Made by a program: the position numbers and the translations under genes. The notes beneath the pieces were generated by a model that ran no database searches, was not told the DNA's origin, and was given only the letters and a program-made list of their open reading frames with translations. Below are positions 2,547-64,000 of a stretch of 64,000 bases of DNA, in pieces. The stretch lies in assembly GCF_005887615.1 (NCBI RefSeq), contig NZ_VANS01000001.1, positions 1,103,415 through 1,167,414 on the forward strand. Reading direction: 5' to 3'. Within the stretch, counting starts at the first letter, position 1; each line of letters starts with the position of its first letter. This DNA comes from Sulfitobacter sabulilitoris. GTDB lineage: Bacteria > Pseudomonadota > Alphaproteobacteria > Rhodobacterales > Rhodobacteraceae.

Positions 2547-2966
2547 CTAGGCGTCTCTGGCCGCCTGATCCTGCAACACGGTCAGGATTTGCAATGCCCG
2601 GTCGTGCATCTTTGTCGGCACGAACAGGTGGTCGTGGTGAAATGCCGCGACCATGTTGCAGGGAATGGCGTTATCCCCCAGCGCCGTTGACACCGCCGAC
2701 GTGAGCCCGACCCCATCCAGCGAGGAATACACGTTGAGCGTGATGCAGCGCATCGGCTGATCGACGCTCAAGCTGGCTCCCCGGGCTGTCTCGACCGGAA
2801 TGATCAACGACATCCCTTCGTCTTCCTTGAAGAATGAAATCGCCTCGGAGGACAGTGACGCGGCAAGAGCGGGGTCAGCGACGGTCACAAAAACAAATTC
2901 GCCCGACCGCACCGTCGGCGTCATCCCGGAGACCATCTCCTGCGCCGTTCGAGAGATTTCAGGCAT
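2547..2966 (-). CDS. ACT domain-containing protein (ACT_3/DUF2241 type)
   Basis: This is a small soluble protein of 139 residues if started at the ATG at 2966 (MPEISRTAQEMVSGMTPTVR). A second ATG two codons upstream at 2972 is equally possible; I preferred 2966 because the GCGGA motif is better spaced from it. The pattern of MVSGM, then GEFVFVTV, then LNVYSSLDGVGLTSAVS, then FHHDHLFVP is typical of the tandem-ACT DUF2241 family, which is presumed to sense small ligands, often amino acids. No enzyme domain is attached. It lies downstream of pntB on the same strand, but a strong terminator separates the two, so it is probably transcribed alone. Confidence 0.8.
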   Translation of the reverse strand: MPEISRTAQEMVSGMTPTVRSGEFVFVTVADPALAASLSSEAISFFKEDEGMSLIIPVETARGASLSVDQPMRCITLNVYSSLDGVGLTSAVSTALGDNAIPCNMVAAFHHDHLFVPTKMHDRALQILTVLQDQAARDA

Positions 2967-3076
2967 TCGCATGATCCGCTTTTGTGTGACGCCCAAGCAT
3001 CGCAGCGTTTCCGGGTGCCCGCAACGCCCAGCACGGTCGCTGCGGTCGCAAAACTCCCCCGGCCACCCGCGCACGA

Positions 3077-3107
3077 AAAAGCCCCGCACGGGTGGTGTGG
3101 GGCTTTT
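3077..3107 (-). terminator. Rho-independent terminator of pntAB
   Basis: On the minus strand a stem AAAAGCCCC/GGGGCTTTT with a 13-base loop ends in a T run, 23 bases past the pntB stop. The arms are at 3077-3085 and 3099-3107. The stem is nearly symmetrical, so it could also stop transcription from the other side. Confidence 0.8.
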
Positions 3108-3129
3108 CCATATCTGCCTGTCGGGCCGC

Positions 3130-4578
3130 TTAGTCGATCAGCGGCAGCAGCTTGTTCAGGCTGTCCTTGGCATCGCCATAGAACATGCGCGTGTTCTCCT
3201 TGAAGAACAGCGGGTTCTCGATACCCGAATACCCCGTGCCCTGACCCCGCTTGGAGACGAACACCGTCTTGGCCTTCCAGCATTCCAGCACCGGCATCCC
3301 GGCGATGGGGCTGTTGGGGTCGTCCTGTGCGGCGGGGTTCACGATGTCGTTCGACCCGATCACGATGGCGACGTCCGTGTTGGGGAAGTCCTCGTTGATC
3401 TCGTCCATCTCCAGCACGATGTCATAGGGCACCTTGGCCTCGGCCAGCAGCACGTTCATGTGGCCCGGCAGACGCCCCGCCACGGGGTGAATGGCAAAGC
3501 GCACGTTCTTGCCCTTGGCGCGCAACTTCTTGACCAGTTCGCTGACCGCCTGCTGCGCCTGTGCCACCGCCATGCCGTAGCCGGGGATGATGATGACGCT
3601 GTCGGCCTCGTTGAGGGCCTGGGCAACGCCGTCGGCCTCGATCGCGACCTGCTCGCCCTCGACCTCCATCTGCGGGCCCGAGGTGCCGCCAAAGCCGCCA
3701 AGGATCACGCTGACGAACTTGCGGTTCATCGCCTTGCACATGATGTAGCTCAGGATCGCACCGGAGGAGCCCACGAGCGCGCCCGTGACGATCAGCAGAT
3801 CGTTGCCCAGCGTGAAGCCGATGGCCGCCGCCGCCCAGCCCGAGTAGCTGTTGAGCATTGACACCACGACCGGCATGTCCGCGCCGCCGATGCCCATGAT
3901 CAGGTGCCAGCCGATAAAGCCCGCGATCAGCGTGACCAGCACCATCGTCCAGATGCCCGCCCCGTTGAAATACAGCAGGCCAAGCAGGATCGACGCCGCC
4001 AGCGCGGTCGCGTTCAGCATGTGGCCGCCCGGCAGCTTGCTGGGCTTGCCGTCGACCTTGCCCGCCAGTTTGCCGAAGGCGATGACCGATCCGGTAAAGG
4101 TCACCGCACCGATGAAGATGCCCAGGAACACCTCGACCTTGAGGATCGCGATTTCCACCGCATCCTTTTTCCAGAGCTGTTCGCCGAACCCCGTCAGGTC
4201 CGCATCGGCGATGTTCACGCCGCTGTCGCGCAGCGCCACGACCGAACTGAGCATCATGTCGGCATTCAGCCCGATAAAGACCGCTGCCAGACCGACGAAG
4301 CTGTGCAGCGCCGCCACAAGCTGCGGCATTTCGGTCATCTGGACCTTGCCCGCCACGTAGTAGCCCGCGAACCCGCCCGCCGCGATGGCGATCAGGATCA
4401 GCAGCACGTTGCTGACACCGGGGCCAAAGACGGTGGCAAAGACCGCCACCCCCATGCCCACGATGCCGTACCAGACCGCGCGCTTGGCGCTTTCCTGGTT
4501 GTTCAGCCCGCCAAGGCTGAGGATGAAGAGAACCGACGCCGCGATGTAGGCGGCAGACGTCAAACCAATCGAAAACAT
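3130..4578 (-). CDS. pntB: NAD(P) transhydrogenase subunit beta
   Basis: PntB is the membrane and NADP(H)-binding subunit of the proton-translocating transhydrogenase, which uses the proton gradient to reduce NADP+ with NADH. The 482-residue protein begins with about nine membrane helices (roughly residues 1-260) and ends in the soluble domain III. There the Rossmann motif [10 protein letters not shown] sits near residue 330 and a late [11 protein letters not shown] near residue 410. I start at the ATG at 4578, with GGGAG 8 bases upstream; an in-frame TTG one codon earlier is less likely. It follows pntA by 13 bases, so the two form an operon closed by the terminator at 3077-3107. Confidence 0.95.
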
Positions 4579-4591
4579 CAAGACGTCTCCC

Positions 4592-6166
4592 TTACGACTT
4601 CTGGAACATGGCGAGCATCCGCCGCGTCACGAGAAAGCCCCCCACGATATTGATGGAGGCAATCAGCACCGAGATGAAGGCGAGCAGAACCACCAGCAGG
4701 TTGCCTGAGCCGACCTGTAGCAGTGCGCCGAGAATCACGATGCCGGAGATGGCGTTGGTCACGGCCATCAGCGGCGTGTGCAGGCTGTGCGCCACGCCCC
4801 AGATCACCTGGAAGCCCACGAAACACGCCAGCGCGAAGACGATGAAGTGCTGCATGAAGCTGGCGGGTGCAAAGGCCCCGATCAGTAGCATCACCGCACC
4901 GCCGATGGCAAGCAATGTGACCTGGCTCTTGGTCTGTGCCTTGAAGGCGGCCACTTCGGCGGCGCGCTTTTCCTGCGGGCTCAGTTCCTTGGCCTTTTCC
5001 TTTTTGGGGGCCGCCGCGATCGCGGCCACCTTGGGCGGCGGCGGCGGGAATGTCACCTCGTGGTCATGGGTGATCGTCGCGCCGCGGATCACGTCGTCTT
5101 CCATGTCGTGATCGATCTTACCGTCCTTGCCGGGCGTCAGATCGGTCAGCATGTGACGGATGTTGGTTGCATAAAGCGTGGAGGCCTGCGTCGCCATCCG
5201 GCTGGGGAAATCGGTGTAGCCGATGATCGTCACGCCGTTCTCGGTCACGACCTTCTCGTCCATCCTGGTCAGCTTGCAGTTGCCGCCCTTCTCCGCCGCC
5301 AGATCGACGATGACCGATCCCGCCTTCATCGACGCGACCATATCCTCGGTCCAAAGCTCGGGCGCTTCGCGGTTGGGGATCAGCGCGGTGGTGATCACCA
5401 CGTCCATGTCAGGCGCCAGTTCGCGGAACTTGGCCAGTTGCGCCTCGCGGAATTCCGGCGAGGACACGGAGGCATAGCCGCCCGATGCCGACCCGTCCTG
5501 CTGCTCTTCCTCAAAGTCGAGGAACACGAACTCGGCGCCCATGCTCTCGACCTGCTCGGCCACTTCGGGGCGCACGTCAAAGGCATAGGTGATCGCGCCG
5601 AGGCTGGTGGCCGTGCCGATCGCGGCAAGCCCCGCAACACCCGCGCCCACGACCAGAACCTTGGCCGGGGGCACCTTGCCCGCCGCCGTGATCTGACCGG
5701 TAAAGAAGCGGCCGAAGTTGTTGGCGGCCTCGACCACCGCGCGGTAACCCGCGATATTGGCCATCGACGACAGCGCGTCCATCTTCTGGGCACGCGATAT
5801 GCGCGGCACCATGTCCATCGCGACGACGGTCGCGCCCTTCTTGGCGGCGGCCTCCATCAGATCGGTGTTGCCGGCGGGATTGAACATCGAAATCAGGGTC
5901 TGACCCTCGCGCAGGCGCTTGACCTCGGTGTCGCTGGGGGCGCGCACCTTGGTCACGACGTCGGCGGCCTTCCAGAGCGCGGCGGCCGTCTTGGCGATTT
6001 CGACACCGGCCTCCTTGTAATCCTCGTCGGAAAAGCCGGCATCCGCTCCGGCGCCCGTCTCGATGATGCACTCATGCCCGAGTTTTTGCAGCATCCGGGC
6101 GCTGTCGGGCGTCATCGCAACGCGACGCTCGCCCTCGATTGTTTCTTTTGGTGTCCCGATCTTCAC
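4592..6166 (-). CDS. pntA: NAD(P) transhydrogenase subunit alpha
   Basis: PntA carries the NAD(H)-binding domain I and part of the membrane domain of the transhydrogenase. It is a single 524-residue chain like the E. coli type, not the split PntAA/PntAB form. Visible are the N-terminal [20 protein letters not shown], a Rossmann motif [13 protein letters not shown] near residue 170, a proline- and alanine-rich linker ([15 protein letters not shown]) near residue 375, and three or four C-terminal membrane helices. I start at a GTG at 6166, which has a GGGGGG run nearby and matches the conserved N-terminus. The longer frame up to 6295 has no homologous character. It is the first gene of the pntAB operon. 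Confidence 0.95.
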
Positions 6167-59536: not shown

Positions 59537-60607
59537 TCAGGCCATGCCGCCCTTGATCAGACCCTGCGCCAGCCGCGCATAGGCGTCGGCCATCGCCCCC
59601 TCGCCCGCGGCCACGGGCGTGCCGCTGTCTCCCGCCAACCTGGTCTCCAGGTCGATGGGCAGCGTCCCCAGCAAGGGCACGCCGAGCGCCTCCGCCTCAC
59701 GGGCGACGCCGCCATGACCGAAGATCTGGTGTTCCGACCCGCAGGTCGGACAGACGAAGAGGCTCATGTTCTCGATCAGGCCCAGAACCGGGGTCTTCAG
59801 CGTTCCGAACATGTTGATCGCCTTGCGCGCATCGATCAGCGCCACATCCTGCGGCGTGCTGACGACAATCGCGCCGGTCAGTTCGGTCTTGGTACACAGC
59901 GTAAGCTGCACGTCGCCGGTGCCGGGCGGCAGATCCACCAGCAGCACGTCAAGCTCGCCCCATTCCACCTGGCCCATCATCTGCTGCAAGGCCCCCATCA
60001 ACATCGGCCCGCGCCATACGACCGCCTTGCCCTCTTCGACCATGAACCCGATAGACATCAGCGTGACGCCGTGGGCGTGCAGCGGGATGATGCGCTTGCC
60101 GTCGGGCGACGCGGGGCGTTTGTTCACGCCCATCATGCGCGGTTGGCTGGGACCGTATATATCGGCATCCAACAGCCCTACCTTGCGCCCCGCACGCGCC
60201 AGCGCCACCGCGAGGTTCGAGCTGACGGTGGATTTGCCCACTCCACCCTTGCCCGACCCGATCGCAATGATGCGCTTGACGCCCGAAGGTTTGGTCGGCC
60301 CCTCCTGCGGCTTGGGGTGGCCGCCGATCTTGAGGCTGGGCGCCGCGGGTTTCGCCGCGGGGCCATGCGCCGTCAGCGCGACAGCGGCGGAAACGACCCC
60401 CGGCAGGTCGCGCACCAGCTTTTCGGCGGCATCGCGGATGGGCCCCATCTGGCGGGCCACCTCCGGGCTCGGCGCTTCGATGACAAAACGCACCACGCCC
60501 TCCTCGACGCTCAGCGCGCGAATCAAATCATGCGCGATCAGGCTGCGCCCATCGGGAAGCTGGATCCGCGCGAGGGCGGCTTCGATTTCGGCTTTCGTTA
60601 CGGACAT
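59537..60607 (-). CDS. apbC: Mrp/NBP35 family iron-sulfur carrier ATPase
   Basis: This Mrp/ApbC protein is a P-loop ATPase that carries [4Fe-4S] clusters to target proteins. The 356-residue chain has an N-terminal DUF59 (MIP18-like) domain at residues 4-80, a linker rich in Ala, Pro and Lys, the deviant Walker [10 protein letters not shown] at 119-127, [11 protein letters not shown] near 220, and the cluster-binding CPTCG near 275. The ATG at 60607 is chosen; the 32 upstream codons are unconserved. It is divergent from the DUF1127 gene, sharing a 220-base regulatory region. Confidence 0.92.
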
Positions 60608-60644
60608 GCTCAATTTCTCCTCATCTGCGCCCGTTGAAATGGCA

Positions 60645-60659
60645 GCTTTGCAGCAAAGC
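60645..60659. promoter_or_regulatory. Palindrome in the apbC upstream region
   Basis: GCTTTG and CAAAGC flank a CAG spacer. The site lies about 40 bases before the apbC start, on the leader side, so it could be an operator or a short RNA hairpin. Confidence 0.3.
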
Positions 60660-60728
60660 ACAAGTCGATCGGCGGAATTGCCTAAGCCATTAGCAGACCG
60701 CACAAATTTACGCTACGTCCCCTATGCA

Positions 60729-60790
60729 AATGCTGCATGGCAGCATTGTTTAGGTATCCATTGTGCAGGTGCAGCATTGGCTTAAGTATG
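60729..60790 (+). promoter_or_regulatory. Palindrome and direct repeats upstream of the DUF1127 gene
   Basis: AATGCTGC and GCAGCATT flank ATG at 60729-60747. The right arm continues as GCAGCATTGTTTAGGTAT (60740-60757), and a second copy reads GCAGCATTGGCTTAAGTAT (60771-60789). The copies are 31 bp apart, about three helical turns, so a regulator could bind both on the same face. In R. sphaeroides the equivalent gene is driven by RpoHI/RpoHII; I could not identify such a promoter with confidence. Confidence 0.45.
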
Positions 60791-60828
60791 GTCCACAAGC
60801 AACGCAGATACAGCAAGCGAGACGCCAC

Positions 60829-61065
60829 ATGGCTTATTACAACGAAACAACTTCCGCAGGTTCCACCCTGGTCGAGCGCGCCCTCGGGTATGCCGCGCAC
60901 CTTTTGGAAACCGCCGCGACACGGCACGCGCAACGCCGCGTGTACAACCAGACACTGACCGAACTGGGGGCATTGTCCAACCGCGATCTGGCCGATCTTG
61001 GCCTGCATCGCTCGGAACTGCCCCGCGTGGCATGGGACGCGTCGCAAGACGCGACCCGCAGCTAA
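60829..61065 (+). CDS. DUF1127 domain-containing protein (CcaF1-like)
   Basis: The 78-residue protein starts MAYYNETTSAGSTLVERALG and ends with the DUF1127 domain at about residues 33-68 (ELGALSNRDLADLGLHRSEL). Small arginine-rich DUF1127 proteins are RNA-binding; in R. sphaeroides the homologue CcaF1 is cotranscribed with the CcsR sRNAs and affects their maturation. The same layout is seen here, since three CCTCCTCCC-loop hairpins follow directly. I start at the ATG at 60829; the 22 upstream codons contain the regulatory repeats and are unlikely to be coding. Confidence 0.85.
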   Translation: MAYYNETTSAGSTLVERALGYAAHLLETAATRHAQRRVYNQTLTELGALSNRDLADLGLHRSELPRVAWDASQDATRS

Positions 61066-61080
61066 GGTCCAACCGGATCA

Positions 61081-61109
61081 GGCACGTCTCTCCTCCTCCC
61101 TGACGTGTC
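61081..61109 (+). ncRNA. CcsR-like 'cuckoo' RNA hairpin 1
   Basis: GGCACGTC (61081-61088) and GACGTGTC (61102-61109) form an 8-bp stem, with one G-U pair, around a loop that contains CCTCCTCCC at 61092-61100. The loop is complementary to Shine-Dalgarno sequence, which is the hallmark of this sRNA family. Confidence 0.8.
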
Positions 61110-61118
61110 TGTAAAGCG

Positions 61119-61152
61119 GCGGCGGCATCTTCCTCCTCCCTGATGTCGCCGC
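61119..61152 (+). ncRNA. CcsR-like 'cuckoo' RNA hairpin 2
   Basis: GCGGCGGCATC (61119-61129) pairs with GATGTCGCCGC (61142-61152) in an 11-bp stem with one G-U pair. The loop holds CCTCCTCCC at 61132-61140. It is the most stable of the three copies. Confidence 0.8.
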
Positions 61153-61164
61153 TCTCAACCATCC

Positions 61165-61180
61165 GCATCCTTCGGGATGC
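61165..61180 (+). ncRNA. UUCG-capped spacer hairpin
   Basis: GCATCC-TTCG-GGATGC forms a perfect 6-bp stem capped by the very stable UUCG tetraloop, between the second and third CcsR-like hairpins. It may act as a processing barrier. Confidence 0.6.
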
Positions 61181-61194
61181 ACGTCGATACGCGG

Positions 61195-61222
61195 CAAGGG
61201 TCCTCCTCCTCCCTGACCCTTG
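61195..61222 (+). ncRNA. CcsR-like 'cuckoo' RNA hairpin 3
   Basis: CAAGGGTC (61195-61202) and GACCCTTG (61215-61222) form a perfect 8-bp stem around a loop with CCTCCTCCC at 61205-61213, extended 5' by another CTC. Confidence 0.8.
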
Positions 61223-61234
61223 ACGCGGAAGATG

Positions 61235-61270
61235 CGGCGGCTCCCATCCTCCCGGGAGCCGCCGTTTTTT
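61235..61270 (+). terminator. Rho-independent terminator of the DUF1127/CcsR-like transcript
   Basis: CGGCGGCTCCC (61235-61245) pairs with GGGAGCCGCCG (61254-61264) and six T follow (61265-61270). The loop ATCCTCCC still carries a CCTCCC, so this stem may itself derive from a fourth cuckoo RNA. Confidence 0.9.
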
Positions 61271-61359
61271 CTTGCCATCGGGCGATTTGCCCTGGGCGGC
61301 GCTGCCCGTGTGGCGCACGTCTTGCGGTCAGGGGCCGGTGCACCCTGCCGCGCGCACCA

Positions 61360-61635
61360 TCAATGCAACCGAAGCCGCCGACCTGCCGCACCGCCGCGCC
61401 TGAATGGCGGCGTCTGGGGCTGGGCCGCCTGGCGCAGAAAGCCCACAAAGGCCCTGGCCGCGGGTTCCAGCGTCATATCCTGCGGCACCCGGTCCAGCGC
61501 GTCGCGCGCCGCCGGATGCGGGCAACCGTCGAGCGAAAAAACCCACTCCAAAAATCCTTGCCGCGCCGCCTGATCGGCCTGCGCGCCCGTCGCATCCAGA
61601 GCCTGCAACCCGGCGAGAATCTGCGAAAAAACCAT
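61360..61635 (-). CDS. Small protein of unknown function under a cobalamin riboswitch
   Basis: The 91-residue frame starts at an ATG at 61635 with GGAG about 10 bases upstream. It reads MVFSQILAGLQALDATGAQA, then FLEWVFSLDGCPHPAARDAL, then LEPAARAFVGFLRQAAQ, ending in a basic tail. No membrane helix, signal or known motif is visible. It looks like a compact helical protein. It is the only plausible gene between the riboswitch at 61750-61936 and the convergent terminator at 61264, so it should respond to cobalamin. I do not recognise the family. Overlapping frames on this strand (61328-61732) look like shadows. Confidence 0.55.
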   Translation of the reverse strand: MVFSQILAGLQALDATGAQADQAARQGFLEWVFSLDGCPHPAARDALDRVPQDMTLEPAARAFVGFLRQAAQPQTPPFRRGGAAGRRLRLH

Positions 61636-61749
61636 GTTCTTGTCTCCGACCACCGCCCGTGGCCCTTGGGACGGGCGCAGCATCGGGGGCCGTCGCGGCC
61701 AGGGATGGCCCGCATGCGTCCCCGACCGCCACCCGCGATCAACGTCAAT

Positions 61750-61936
61750 CCAAGGCTGGTTTCCGGGCTCGGGGTTAAACGGGCGGGCCGTGAGGGCCCA
61801 AGGTCCGGCACCTTCCCAAGACGCTTGCGCGCCTCAGTGGTCCTGCCGATCCACCCACCCTTACCGTTGCGGGGGCAGCGCCGGGGTCTCACCGGCTTCC
61901 CAATTCTCCCGACCCCGTTACAGGGCAAGGCACCTC
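61750..61936 (-). promoter_or_regulatory. Cobalamin riboswitch
   Basis: On the minus strand the family landmarks occur in order: GGTGCC (61933-61928), GGGAAGCCGGTGAGAC (about 61901-61886), CGCTGCCCCCGCAACGGTAA just after, a CCACTG near 61820, GGGAAGG near 61812, and GAGCCCGGAAACCAGCC ending near 61754. This is the aptamer of the adenosylcobalamin class. The expression platform down to the ATG at 61635 has a CGCCCGT/ACGGGCG stem but no T tract, so control may be at translation. Confidence 0.9.
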
Positions 61937-62082
61937 GGATCCCGACGCTACGCCGCGCGGAGTGAGTCTCGCAAGACCTGATTTGGCGGCGCGTCCCGGT
62001 CGGGCCCGCAGGTGGCCTGCCACCGGCAGGGCACCTCATCATGGTGCGCGCGCGCCAGCGCGCTCCGCGGGATCACGGACAC

Positions 62083-64000
62083 TTAAAAGGGAATGTCGTC
62101 GCAGCCGGTGATGAACTTGGCCACCACCTTCTTCACCCCGGCCTTCTCGAACGCGATCTCAAGCTTGTCGCCCTCGATCCCCGTCACTTCGCCATAGCCG
62201 AATTTCTGGTGGAACACCCGCTCACCCATGGTGAAACTCGACAGCGCGTTCATGTCGATCACGGTGTTGCGGGTCTCGCGCGGCTGGCTCATCGGCCGCT
62301 CGGCGCTGCGTGACTGCAGGCGTCGCCAGCCGGGCGAGTTGTAGACATTCGCTTCGGCCGCCGCATCGTGCAGCCTTGACGCCGGCATCGCCGCGGCCCC
62401 GTATCCGCCGCCATAAAGCCCCGGCGGCGTCAGCACCTCGACGTGCTCATCCGGCAGTTCGTCGATGAACCGCGACGGCATGGAGGATTGCCATTGCCCG
62501 AACACCCGTCGATTGGCGGCAAAGGAGATGGTGCAGACCTCTTCGGCCCGCGTGATGCCGACATAGGCCAGCCGCCGCTCCTCCTCCAGCCCCTTCAGCC
62601 CGCTTTCGTCCATCGACCGCTGCGAGGGGAACAACCCATCTTCCCATCCGGGCAGAAACACCACCGGAAATTCCAGCCCCTTGGCGGCGTGCAGGGTCAT
62701 GACAGAGATTTTCTCTCCCCCGTCGTCGGTTTCGTTGTCCATGATCAGGCTGACGTGTTCCAGAAACCCCTGCAGGTTCTCGAACTGCTCCAGCGCCTTG
62801 ACCAGTTCCTTGAGGTTTTCCAACCGGCCCGGCGCCTCGGGGGTCTTGTCGTTCTGCCAGAACCCGGTGTAGCCGCTTTCGTCGAGGATGATCTCGGCCA
62901 ATTCCATGTGGGATACATCCGCGTCGCCTGCCATGCGGCCCCAGCGGGCGATCCCCTCCATCAGCCGGGCCAGTTCCGCCCCGCCCTTGCCGCCGATCGC
63001 CTTGGTCTCGACCACCAGCCGCGCGCCCTCGACAAGGCTGAGACCGTTGTCGCGGGCATGGCGCTGGATCGTCTGCTGCGCCTTGTCGCCAAGGCCGCGT
63101 TTGGGCGTGTTGACGATCCGCTCGAAGGCCAGATCGTCGTCAGGCGACGTGACGACGCGGAAATAGGCCATGGCGTCGCGGATCTCCATCCGCTCGTAGA
63201 AGCGTGGCCCGCCGATCACCCGGTACGGCAGCCCGATGGTCAGGAACCGGTCCTCGAAGGCGCGCATCTGGTGGCTGGCGCGCACCAGGATCGCCATGTC
63301 GTCCAGACCGAACCTGTCCATCCCGCGCGTGCCGCGCTGCGCCGCCTCGATCTCCTCGCCGATCCAGCGCGCCTCCTCCTCGCCGTCCCAATGGCCGATC
63401 AGGCGAACCTTCTCGCCCTCCTGCGCCTCGGTCCAGAGCGTCTTGCCCAGCCGGCCTTCATTGCCTTCGATCACACCCGAGGCCGCAGCCAGAATATGCG
63501 GGGTGGACCGGTAGTTCTGTTCCAACCGGACCACATGCGCGCCGGGAAAGTCCTTTTCGAACCGCAGGATATTGCCCACCTCGGCCCCGCGCCAGCCATA
63601 GATCGACTGGTCGTCGTCACCGACGCAGCAGATGTTCTTGTGCGCCCCCGCCAGCAGCCGCAGCCACAGGTACTGCGCCACGTTCGTGTCCTGGTATTCG
63701 TCCACAAGGATGTATTTGAACCAGCGCTGGTATTGCTCCAGCACATCGGGGTGGGCCTGAAAGATCGTGACCATATGCAGCAGCAGATCGCCGAAATCGG
63801 TGGCGTTCAGCTCGCGCAGGCGGGTCTGGTACTGCGCATAGATTTCGGTGCCGCGGTGGTTGTAGGCCCCTGCATCCGCGGCTGGCACCTTCTCGGGCGT
63901 CAACGCGCGGTTCTTCCAGCCGTCGATGATGCCAAGCAGCATCCGCGCGGGCCAGCGCTTGTCGTCGATGCCCTCGGTCGCGACCAGTTGCTTGAGCAGT
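62083..64000 (-). CDS. uvrD: ATP-dependent DNA helicase UvrD/PcrA, 5' part outside the window
   Basis: Translation is open from position 64000, so the N-terminus, with the Walker A motif, is missing. About 639 codons are visible. They include the partial SF1A core: WFKYILVDEYQDTNVAQYLW (motif II) near 63700, EQNYRSTPHILAA near 63500, VMTLHAAKGLEFPVVFLPGW near 62690 and RRLAYVGITRAEEVCTISFA (motif VI). The C-terminal about 60 residues hold the Tudor-like end (FHQKFGYGEVTGIEGDKLEI). UvrD acts in nucleotide excision and mismatch repair and displaces RNA polymerase. An internal ATG at 63942 is not the true start. Confidence 0.93.
   Translation of the reverse strand, partial: LLKQLVATEGIDDKRWPARMLLGIIDGWKNRALTPEKVPAADAGAYNHRGTEIYAQYQTRLRELNATDFGDLLLHMVTIFQAHPDVLEQYQRWFKYILVDEYQDTNVAQYLWLRLLAGAHKNICCVGDDDQSIYGWRGAEVGNILRFEKDFPGAHVVRLEQNYRSTPHILAAASGVIEGNEGRLGKTLWTEAQEGEKVRLIGHWDGEEEARWIGEEIEAAQRGTRGMDRFGLDDMAILVRASHQMRAFEDRFLTIGLPYRVIGGPRFYERMEIRDAMAYFRVVTSPDDDLAFERIVNTPKRGLGDKAQQTIQRHARDNGLSLVEGARLVVETKAIGGKGGAELARLMEGIARWGRMAGDADVSHMELAEIILDESGYTGFWQNDKTPEAPGRLENLKELVKALEQFENLQGFLEHVSLIMDNETDDGGEKISVMTLHAAKGLEFPVVFLPGWEDGLFPSQRSMDESGLKGLEEERRLAYVGITRAEEVCTISFAANRRVFGQWQSSMPSRFIDELPDEHVEVLTPPGLYGGGYGAAAMPASRLHDAAAEANVYNSPGWRRLQSRSAERPMSQPRETRNTVIDMNALSSFTMGERVFHQKFGYGEVTGIEGDKLEIAFEKAGVKKVVAKFITGCDDIPF

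Follow-up and report, generated by a model that had tools for sequence, protein, structure and literature searches.

A conserved small-protein gene family linked to cobalamin riboswitches in the Rhodobacteraceae

The riboswitch locus of Sulfitobacter sabulilitoris

The window, as we call the whole 64 kb stretch of Sulfitobacter sabulilitoris DNA analysed here, carries a cobalamin (B12) riboswitch and a short reading frame on its minus strand, with the following features.

61737..61952, minus strand: cobalamin riboswitch aptamer RF00174, complete, model positions 1-189 (cmscan, 97.4 bits, E 4.5e-23)
61724..61740, minus strand: putative P13-type hairpin GAUCGC-GGGUG-GCGGUC at the 3' end of the aptamer (read by eye)
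61636..61736, minus strand: leader or expression platform, 101 nt (terminator scan, folding against shuffles)
61644..61647, minus strand: Shine-Dalgarno-like GGAG, 8 nt ahead of the ATG (read by eye from the sequence)
61360..61635, minus strand: small helical protein of 91 aa with a C-terminal RRGGAAGRR tail (profiles, dN/dS, AlphaFold)

The aptamer covers all 189 positions of the RF00174 model in an Rfam covariance-model scan, and scores 97.4 bits where the gathering score is 31.5; no other Rfam match in the 64 kb scanned reaches its gathering score. A sequence-only reading of this DNA had proposed a complete adenosylcobalamin aptamer on the minus strand, and this proved right; its upper limit of 61936 falls 16 nt short of the aptamer's end at 61952. 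Cobalamin riboswitches usually control genes such as btuB, cbtAB or metE. The whole S. sabulilitoris genome contains two RF00174 matches, of which the second (C1:90306-90516) lies ahead of transport-type frames and a TonB receptor gene whose best NCBIfam match, below cut-off, is the B12 receptor family; these are targets of the usual kind. The window aptamer is like other members of RF00174 (clan CL00101) in being complete, above the gathering score and 5' of a gene, but unlike them in that the gene it controls, a co-directional frame of 91 codons at a spacing of 101 nt, encodes an undescribed small protein and not one of those targets.

The putative P13-type hairpin could, judging from its sequence, kiss loop L5, but 61600-61790 folded by itself to minimum energy does not reproduce the hairpin in the form read by eye, and folding of the same interval does not exceed that of shuffled controls (z +1.23). 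A terminator scan of 60600-62300 returned a single terminator-like site (1 found, against 1.9 expected in shuffles), at 61234-61265 plus a T-run, on the plus strand. The same scan found no such site on the minus strand, either 3' of the 91-aa frame or between the aptamer and the ATG. An end of the transcript before 61635, which would have told against the sequence-only reading, was thus not indicated: the scan detected no intrinsic stop ahead of the ATG, though the transcript may end there by the action of Rho.

The next coding gene after the frame runs in the opposite direction and encodes a DUF1127 protein (60829-61065, plus strand; PF06568 at 1.3e-10). The sequence-only reading had seen nothing else before a convergent terminator; the next gene is indeed convergent, but the terminator, lying on the plus strand, belongs to the opposite transcript. 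The interval 60829-61270 on the plus strand comprises the DUF1127 (CcaF1-like) gene, two matches to CcsR1/ar14-like sRNAs at 61060-61270, both below gathering score, and the terminator. In this it resembles the ccaF1-CcsR locus of R. sphaeroides, described as a stress locus (PMC10253847), here placed convergent with the B12-controlled gene. The small protein shares with the RNA-binding CcaF1/DUF1127 proteins its small size and arginine-rich character, and a DUF1127 gene adjoins it, but it has no match to DUF1127 (PF06568) itself.

The small protein

The frame runs from an ATG at 61635 to a stop at 61360, and is also open in a longer in-frame form of 107 aa from an ATG at 61683; the ATG at 61635 is preferred because alignments of the family begin there. 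Neither form is matched above cut-off by any Pfam or NCBIfam model, the lone Pfam match having E 0.2. Three family members searched against PHROG and PADLOC gave no match, so that a phage or defence origin was dropped, and no relative was found in the viral contigs searched. A search of the open-access literature found no paper on the family, whose members range from 86 to 114 aa and which is real, conserved and without description in the libraries searched.

AlphaFold models the window protein with pLDDT 86.2 and pTM 0.72 (pLDDT falling to 53-69 from residue 71 onward), and a member of the large branch of the family referred to below as group B with pLDDT 89.1 and pTM 0.78, as four helices followed by a short C-terminal helix. 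The family protein is therefore predicted with confidence to have a four-helix fold, to which a conserved RRGGAxxRR tail is appended, and is probably soluble. Foldseek gave 20 matches to the group-B model and 32 to the window model, none at E <= 0.001, and the best VIA-align hit to the group-B model (1t5o_A, Z 4.9, rmsd 5.0, 96 aligned) is under the level that the tool treats as meaningful. Three matches from a PDB sequence search, at E about 2, were disregarded. On these models no solved fold matches convincingly, which is not proof of a new fold. Nine residues are invariant across 61 aligned rows, M1, L10, G27, W31, A46, F63, G81, G82 and R87 in the numbering of the window protein.

Distribution and conservation of the family

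Homologues were sought in 295 genomes of the window's own family, one per genus and drawn from a larger group. When the 107-aa form served as query, 35 of the 295 matched at E <= 0.01; many of the weaker matches are unrelated frames, while the better ones share start, core and tail. (The long-frame matches L014, L019, L021-L024, L027, L030 and L031 were judged unrelated from their translations.) A 16-row profile separated the family cleanly: 27 of the 295 genera, about 9% of those sampled, gave one strong match per genome (E <= 3.7e-20), and the next score was at E 5.5e-8. Weak profile matches in 63 genomes that have no strong match are attributed, from four examined loci only, to a paralogue described below. 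Across the class, E <= 1e-4 was reached in 2 of 385 genomes, one being the own genome and the other belonging to another family, in a draw that contained few genomes of the window's own family.

Scanning named genome contigs with the window protein alone found nothing, because it is too divergent; scanning them with a profile of 16 group-B-side rows gave 63 loci. Most are titled Rhodobacterales (Rhodobacter, Shimia, Roseovarius, Roseicyclus, Rhodovulum, Lentibacter and others), together with some metagenome-assembled genomes whose titles name other Alphaproteobacteria and one duplicate contig whose title names Flavobacteriia. Counts below refer to 62 distinct loci, L147 being a duplicate of L146; L140, L141 and L147 were left out of two alignments, and the 27-genome and 62-locus sets overlap.

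The window protein is 30-47% identical to 15 homologues (47% at most) and 21-39% identical to group B. Nei-Gojobori dN/dS was 0.05-0.58 in 20 of 22 chosen pairs and undefined through saturation in the other two, and the close pairs show that the small gene is under purifying selection. In most pairs that involve the window dS is nearly saturated, and the evidence there comes from protein identity and from codon third positions, which are the least conserved positions of the window frame against all five homologues compared. Judged from this pattern of sequence conservation, the 91-aa frame is a real gene, and the check on conservation between related genomes that the sequence-only reading had called for came out in its favour.

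These data bear on the suggestion that the riboswitch is genuine and the frame decaying, its transcript being non-coding or antisense, for instance to the CcsR-like sRNAs at 61060-61270. The divergence of the window copy would fit such a view, as would the scan's finding no minus-strand terminator ahead of the convergent sRNA genes. It is nevertheless highly improbable, given that frame, start, core residues and tail are all kept across those 15 homologues and that substitutions gather at third positions.

Branches and a paralogue without a detected riboswitch

The window copy and eight others, as clustered by blastp, lie beside a helicase gene, which from its motifs we take to be uvrD/pcrA-like; these uvrD-side copies are called group A. 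In a tree built on 79 rows and 101 columns, in which many forks are unresolved, the window pairs with L004 (98/82), and a large group B of 62 rows is set apart (99/84). Group A does not come out as a clean clade: L012, from the uvrD side, and L009 and L010 fall toward group B, while four paralogues of glnE type fall among the other group-A rows.

The paralogue family is homologous by profile (hhalign 96.7%, E 3.5e-10), and its profile (A2) in turn matches the window ORF at E 1.4e-6. It has in common with the small protein the tryptophan core and the RRGG tail, but its N-terminus carries a DPKGLI..YRI motif that the window member lacks, its genes adjoin glnE in three of the four loci examined, and no riboswitch was found at the three paralogue loci scanned, in contrast to the window member. 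Two paralogue members tested had no Pfam match. S. sabulilitoris itself encodes one (L178, G000:C1:486667-486933). The existence of this relative, at which no riboswitch was detected, suggests that a general activity was put under B12 control in the branch of the small gene.

Linkage to the riboswitch across genomes

A cobalamin riboswitch precedes the small gene in 24 of the 27 strong members. In 23 of them an RF00174 match at gathering score lies directly upstream; in the remaining one (G266) it lies upstream of two oxygenase genes, a GbcAB-like pair, and the small gene is third in the run. The other three strong members (G277, G041 and G252) have no riboswitch within about 1.5 kb. Among the 62 named loci, where riboswitches were called not by Rfam but by nhmmer (E <= 1e-3) with a DNA profile built on 25 copies that Rfam had confirmed, 59 have one ending within 600 nt upstream; its distance from the start codon has a median of 126 nt and a longest value of 325 nt, and is 106-145 nt in 57 of the 59. 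No riboswitch was called within 600 nt upstream in L099, L106 and L125. Because the pairing of aptamer and frame recurs in other genomes it goes beyond chance, and the linkage across Rhodobacterales that the sequence-only reading had proposed to look for was found.

Neighbouring genes

In 31 of the 62 loci the small gene lies within about 6 kb of B12-type genes, as judged against reference proteins named by Pfam and NCBIfam and drawn from loci of the same set, so that a few are self-matches: transport genes in 18, MetH in 10, GbcAB in 8 and Cob genes in 2. Full 6 kb flanks were available for 47 of the 62 loci and shorter ones for 15. We put the background rate of such neighbours at a few per cent. 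The proteins called BtuF-like belong to Peripla_BP_2 and match the NCBIfam BtuF model below its cut-off; GbcA and GbcB are likewise assigned from best NCBIfam matches below cut-off (for GbcA, two genes tested, in L042 and L094). Half of the loci have no recognised B12 gene nearby, and several neighbours, such as malate synthase and a phosphate transporter, are unrelated to B12. With the same references none of the four paralogue loci was matched, nor was anything else in the 64 kb window, and on the window's side of the family a B12-type gene is found near only two of the ten larger loci (L035, BtuB/BtuC-like; L042, GbcAB-like). The proposal of a new cobalamin-related factor is thus supported as to regulation and association, and more weakly for the window's own side.

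Gene order close to the small gene invites two other explanations of its function. By a simple gene picker, and with L115, L126, L150 and L151 set by hand to the same strand from neighbour comparison, the next gene is co-directional in 36 loci, convergent in 25 and beyond the contig in one. In 14 loci a BtuF-like gene, and in 6 a MetH gene, follows co-directionally within 900 nt of the small gene's start, 20 of the 62 in all, and in some loci (L050, L164) the ends of the small gene and of the following gene touch or overlap. The frame might then be a regulatory leader ORF coupled to the next gene, through translational coupling or Rho protection, its peptide having no task in trans. There are precedents described for M. 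tuberculosis (PMC11260477, PMC12810186), where riboswitches control conserved small ORFs, namely the uORFs of the metE and ppe2 B12 switches and uORF2/Rv1805A of the Mbox, and Rv1805A has a homologue outside the switch, as has the small protein here. Those ORFs are reported as lying upstream of a larger gene. The present family, likened to them by arrangement, differs in its length of 86-114 aa, in its confidently predicted fold, in a conservation that extends into the RRGG..RR tail under purifying selection, and in the frequency of a convergent next gene. At the window that convergent order leaves no downstream gene to be controlled, although candidates exist in other loci. With a paralogue that has no detected riboswitch also speaking for an independent protein, we regard a mere leader ORF as improbable.

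Alternatively, the small protein could be produced under B12 scarcity as a dedicated partner of cobalamin enzymes or of cobalamin uptake, serving methionine synthase, an MtgC-type corrinoid protein or a BtuF-like protein as a subunit, chaperone or trafficking factor. The recurrent same-strand MetH and BtuF-like genes are in keeping with this, as is the own genome, in which four places encode a B12-binding domain and no match was found to MetE (PF01717) or to the activation domain of MetH (PF02965). Given that complement, methionine synthesis should need a split corrinoid enzyme of the MtgC type, such as is described in PMC12478193, and a shortage of B12 should strike it. Yet no one enzyme partner accompanies the small gene everywhere, the window copy stands alone, and most of the paralogue loci examined adjoin glnE. 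A cysteine near-invariant in group B is retained by only some of the other members (L006, L011) and not through the family, which makes it an unlikely cobalt ligand, and that role was rejected. A dedicated partner is on balance rather unlikely, if the least so of the alternatives considered here.

A start-site hairpin in group B

At the start site of group B the leader bears an additional element. The 13-mer GCGCGGAGGGCGC stands just ahead of the ATG in 51 of the 62 loci and would form a hairpin, GCGC-GGAGG-GCGC. Four pairs are kept with other letters in a further four loci (GUGC..GCGC twice, GUGC..GCAC twice) and three pairs in one, and the hairpin is absent from six. RNAalifold, run on 30 chosen group-B leaders, draws the start hairpin and, closer to the aptamer on its 3' side, a further two; the first of this pair, and not the start hairpin, contains the two-sided changes that it counts. 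The exception is seen outside those counts in the start hairpin, where L139 and L143 alone have one. In a search of 16 whole genomes the exact motif followed by ATG occurs once per genome in all 14 from group B (three of them under 90% complete), each time at the start of the small gene, and is absent from the two from group A; a reversed control pattern gave one match, in one of the genomes searched. The hairpin thus sets group-B leaders apart from RF00174 leaders in general, being found only at the small gene in these genomes. The window leader lacks it, and G252, which was not among the 16, has neither hairpin nor riboswitch. The riboswitch class is already known; the protein family and the start hairpin are the new part.

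In 42 of the 62 leaders there is also a short upstream ORF with an SD-like sequence and ATG, often reading MDxxGPxTSPL..., mostly 64-81 nt before the start; one or two of these are the small gene's own longer frame. In L102, for example, it lies about 68 nt before the start, between aptamer and gene. Its frame relative to the small gene varies, and it was not counted as part of the unit.

Proposed role of the small protein

Taking as our basis the aptamer, the conserved coding frame with its conserved linkage, and B12-related neighbourhoods that lie mainly in the sister branch, we think it fairly probable that riboswitch and small gene form a stand-alone unit, producing a low-B12 factor that acts in trans and is likely to bind RNA or protein. 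Our confidence was slightly lowered because those neighbourhoods are mainly those of group B and not of the window's side. The riboswitch would be of the OFF type, since it is co-regulated with uptake-type genes, and the small protein would accordingly be made when B12 is short. Some caution is due here, because MetH shares some of the operons and an ON switch is possible. With no intrinsic terminator in the leader, control would probably be exerted at the translation start or by Rho. The protein would then serve as a low-B12 response factor, its basic tail binding an RNA or protein partner, rather than the protein acting in catalysis, and the binding might adjust B12-dependent methyl-transfer and uptake functions. 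The arginine-rich tail is, as a feature of sequence, a weak pointer to RNA binding; a small protein made at low B12 and bearing a basic tail would fit the part of regulator or adaptor in the B12 network. We infer in this way a role in B12 biology beyond regulation by B12.

It is tempting to go further, and to see in the family the trans arm of the B12 response of Rhodobacteraceae: an RNA-binding regulator, induced by B12 starvation, of methyl-transfer and uptake mRNAs, which in group B would also bind the start-codon hairpin (GCGC-GGAGG-GCGC) of its own mRNA and so add feedback on top of the riboswitch. This fuller version is speculative, and we consider it unlikely as it stands. For the stand-alone unit as proposed above, the wider point is that a riboswitch regulon is commonly viewed as a catalogue of familiar uptake and synthesis genes, and that here a conserved family, with no library match or recognised fold, is linked with B12 riboswitches throughout a bacterial family in which B12 can be needed for making methionine and for using glycine betaine. 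Family and switch together are probably an unrecognised part of how these related bacteria cope with B12 shortage, and offer an entry point, complete with a start-site hairpin, into a response that reaches beyond uptake.

Other riboswitch-led genes near the family

Several loci contain further genes behind B12 riboswitch matches. A MetH encoded by two genes, the homocysteine domain apart from the pterin, B12-binding and activation part, lies riboswitch-led and on the same strand 3' of the small gene in L044/L127, L126, L135, L142, L149 and L151; a B12-dependent MetH under an OFF switch is odd and was not expected. GbcA-like Rieske oxygenase genes occur in L042 (10370-11920) and L094 (1526-3049), and also in L095, L097, L105, L123, L135 and L149. 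A riboswitch match stands directly ahead of the GbcA-like gene in eight of the nine loci that have one, L124 being the exception, and the oxygenase is possibly a B12-independent back-up for a corrinoid-dependent glycine betaine demethylase. In L099 a riboswitch match lies about 3 kb upstream of the small gene, and between them (2798-5904) lie genes for a metal transporter of ABC, ABC-3 and ZnuA type, which might be a cobalt transporter.

On three Cereibacter plasmids (L163, L164 and L165) the small gene, annotated as 'hypothetical protein' on two and unannotated on the third, adjoins cobyric acid synthase genes and an ABC transporter. Each of these copies carries the sequence of the start hairpin and is preceded, at 125 nt, by a riboswitch; all three lie in a plasmid-borne B12 island that bears several riboswitch matches, about five each in L163 and L165 and about six, plus one marginal, in L164.
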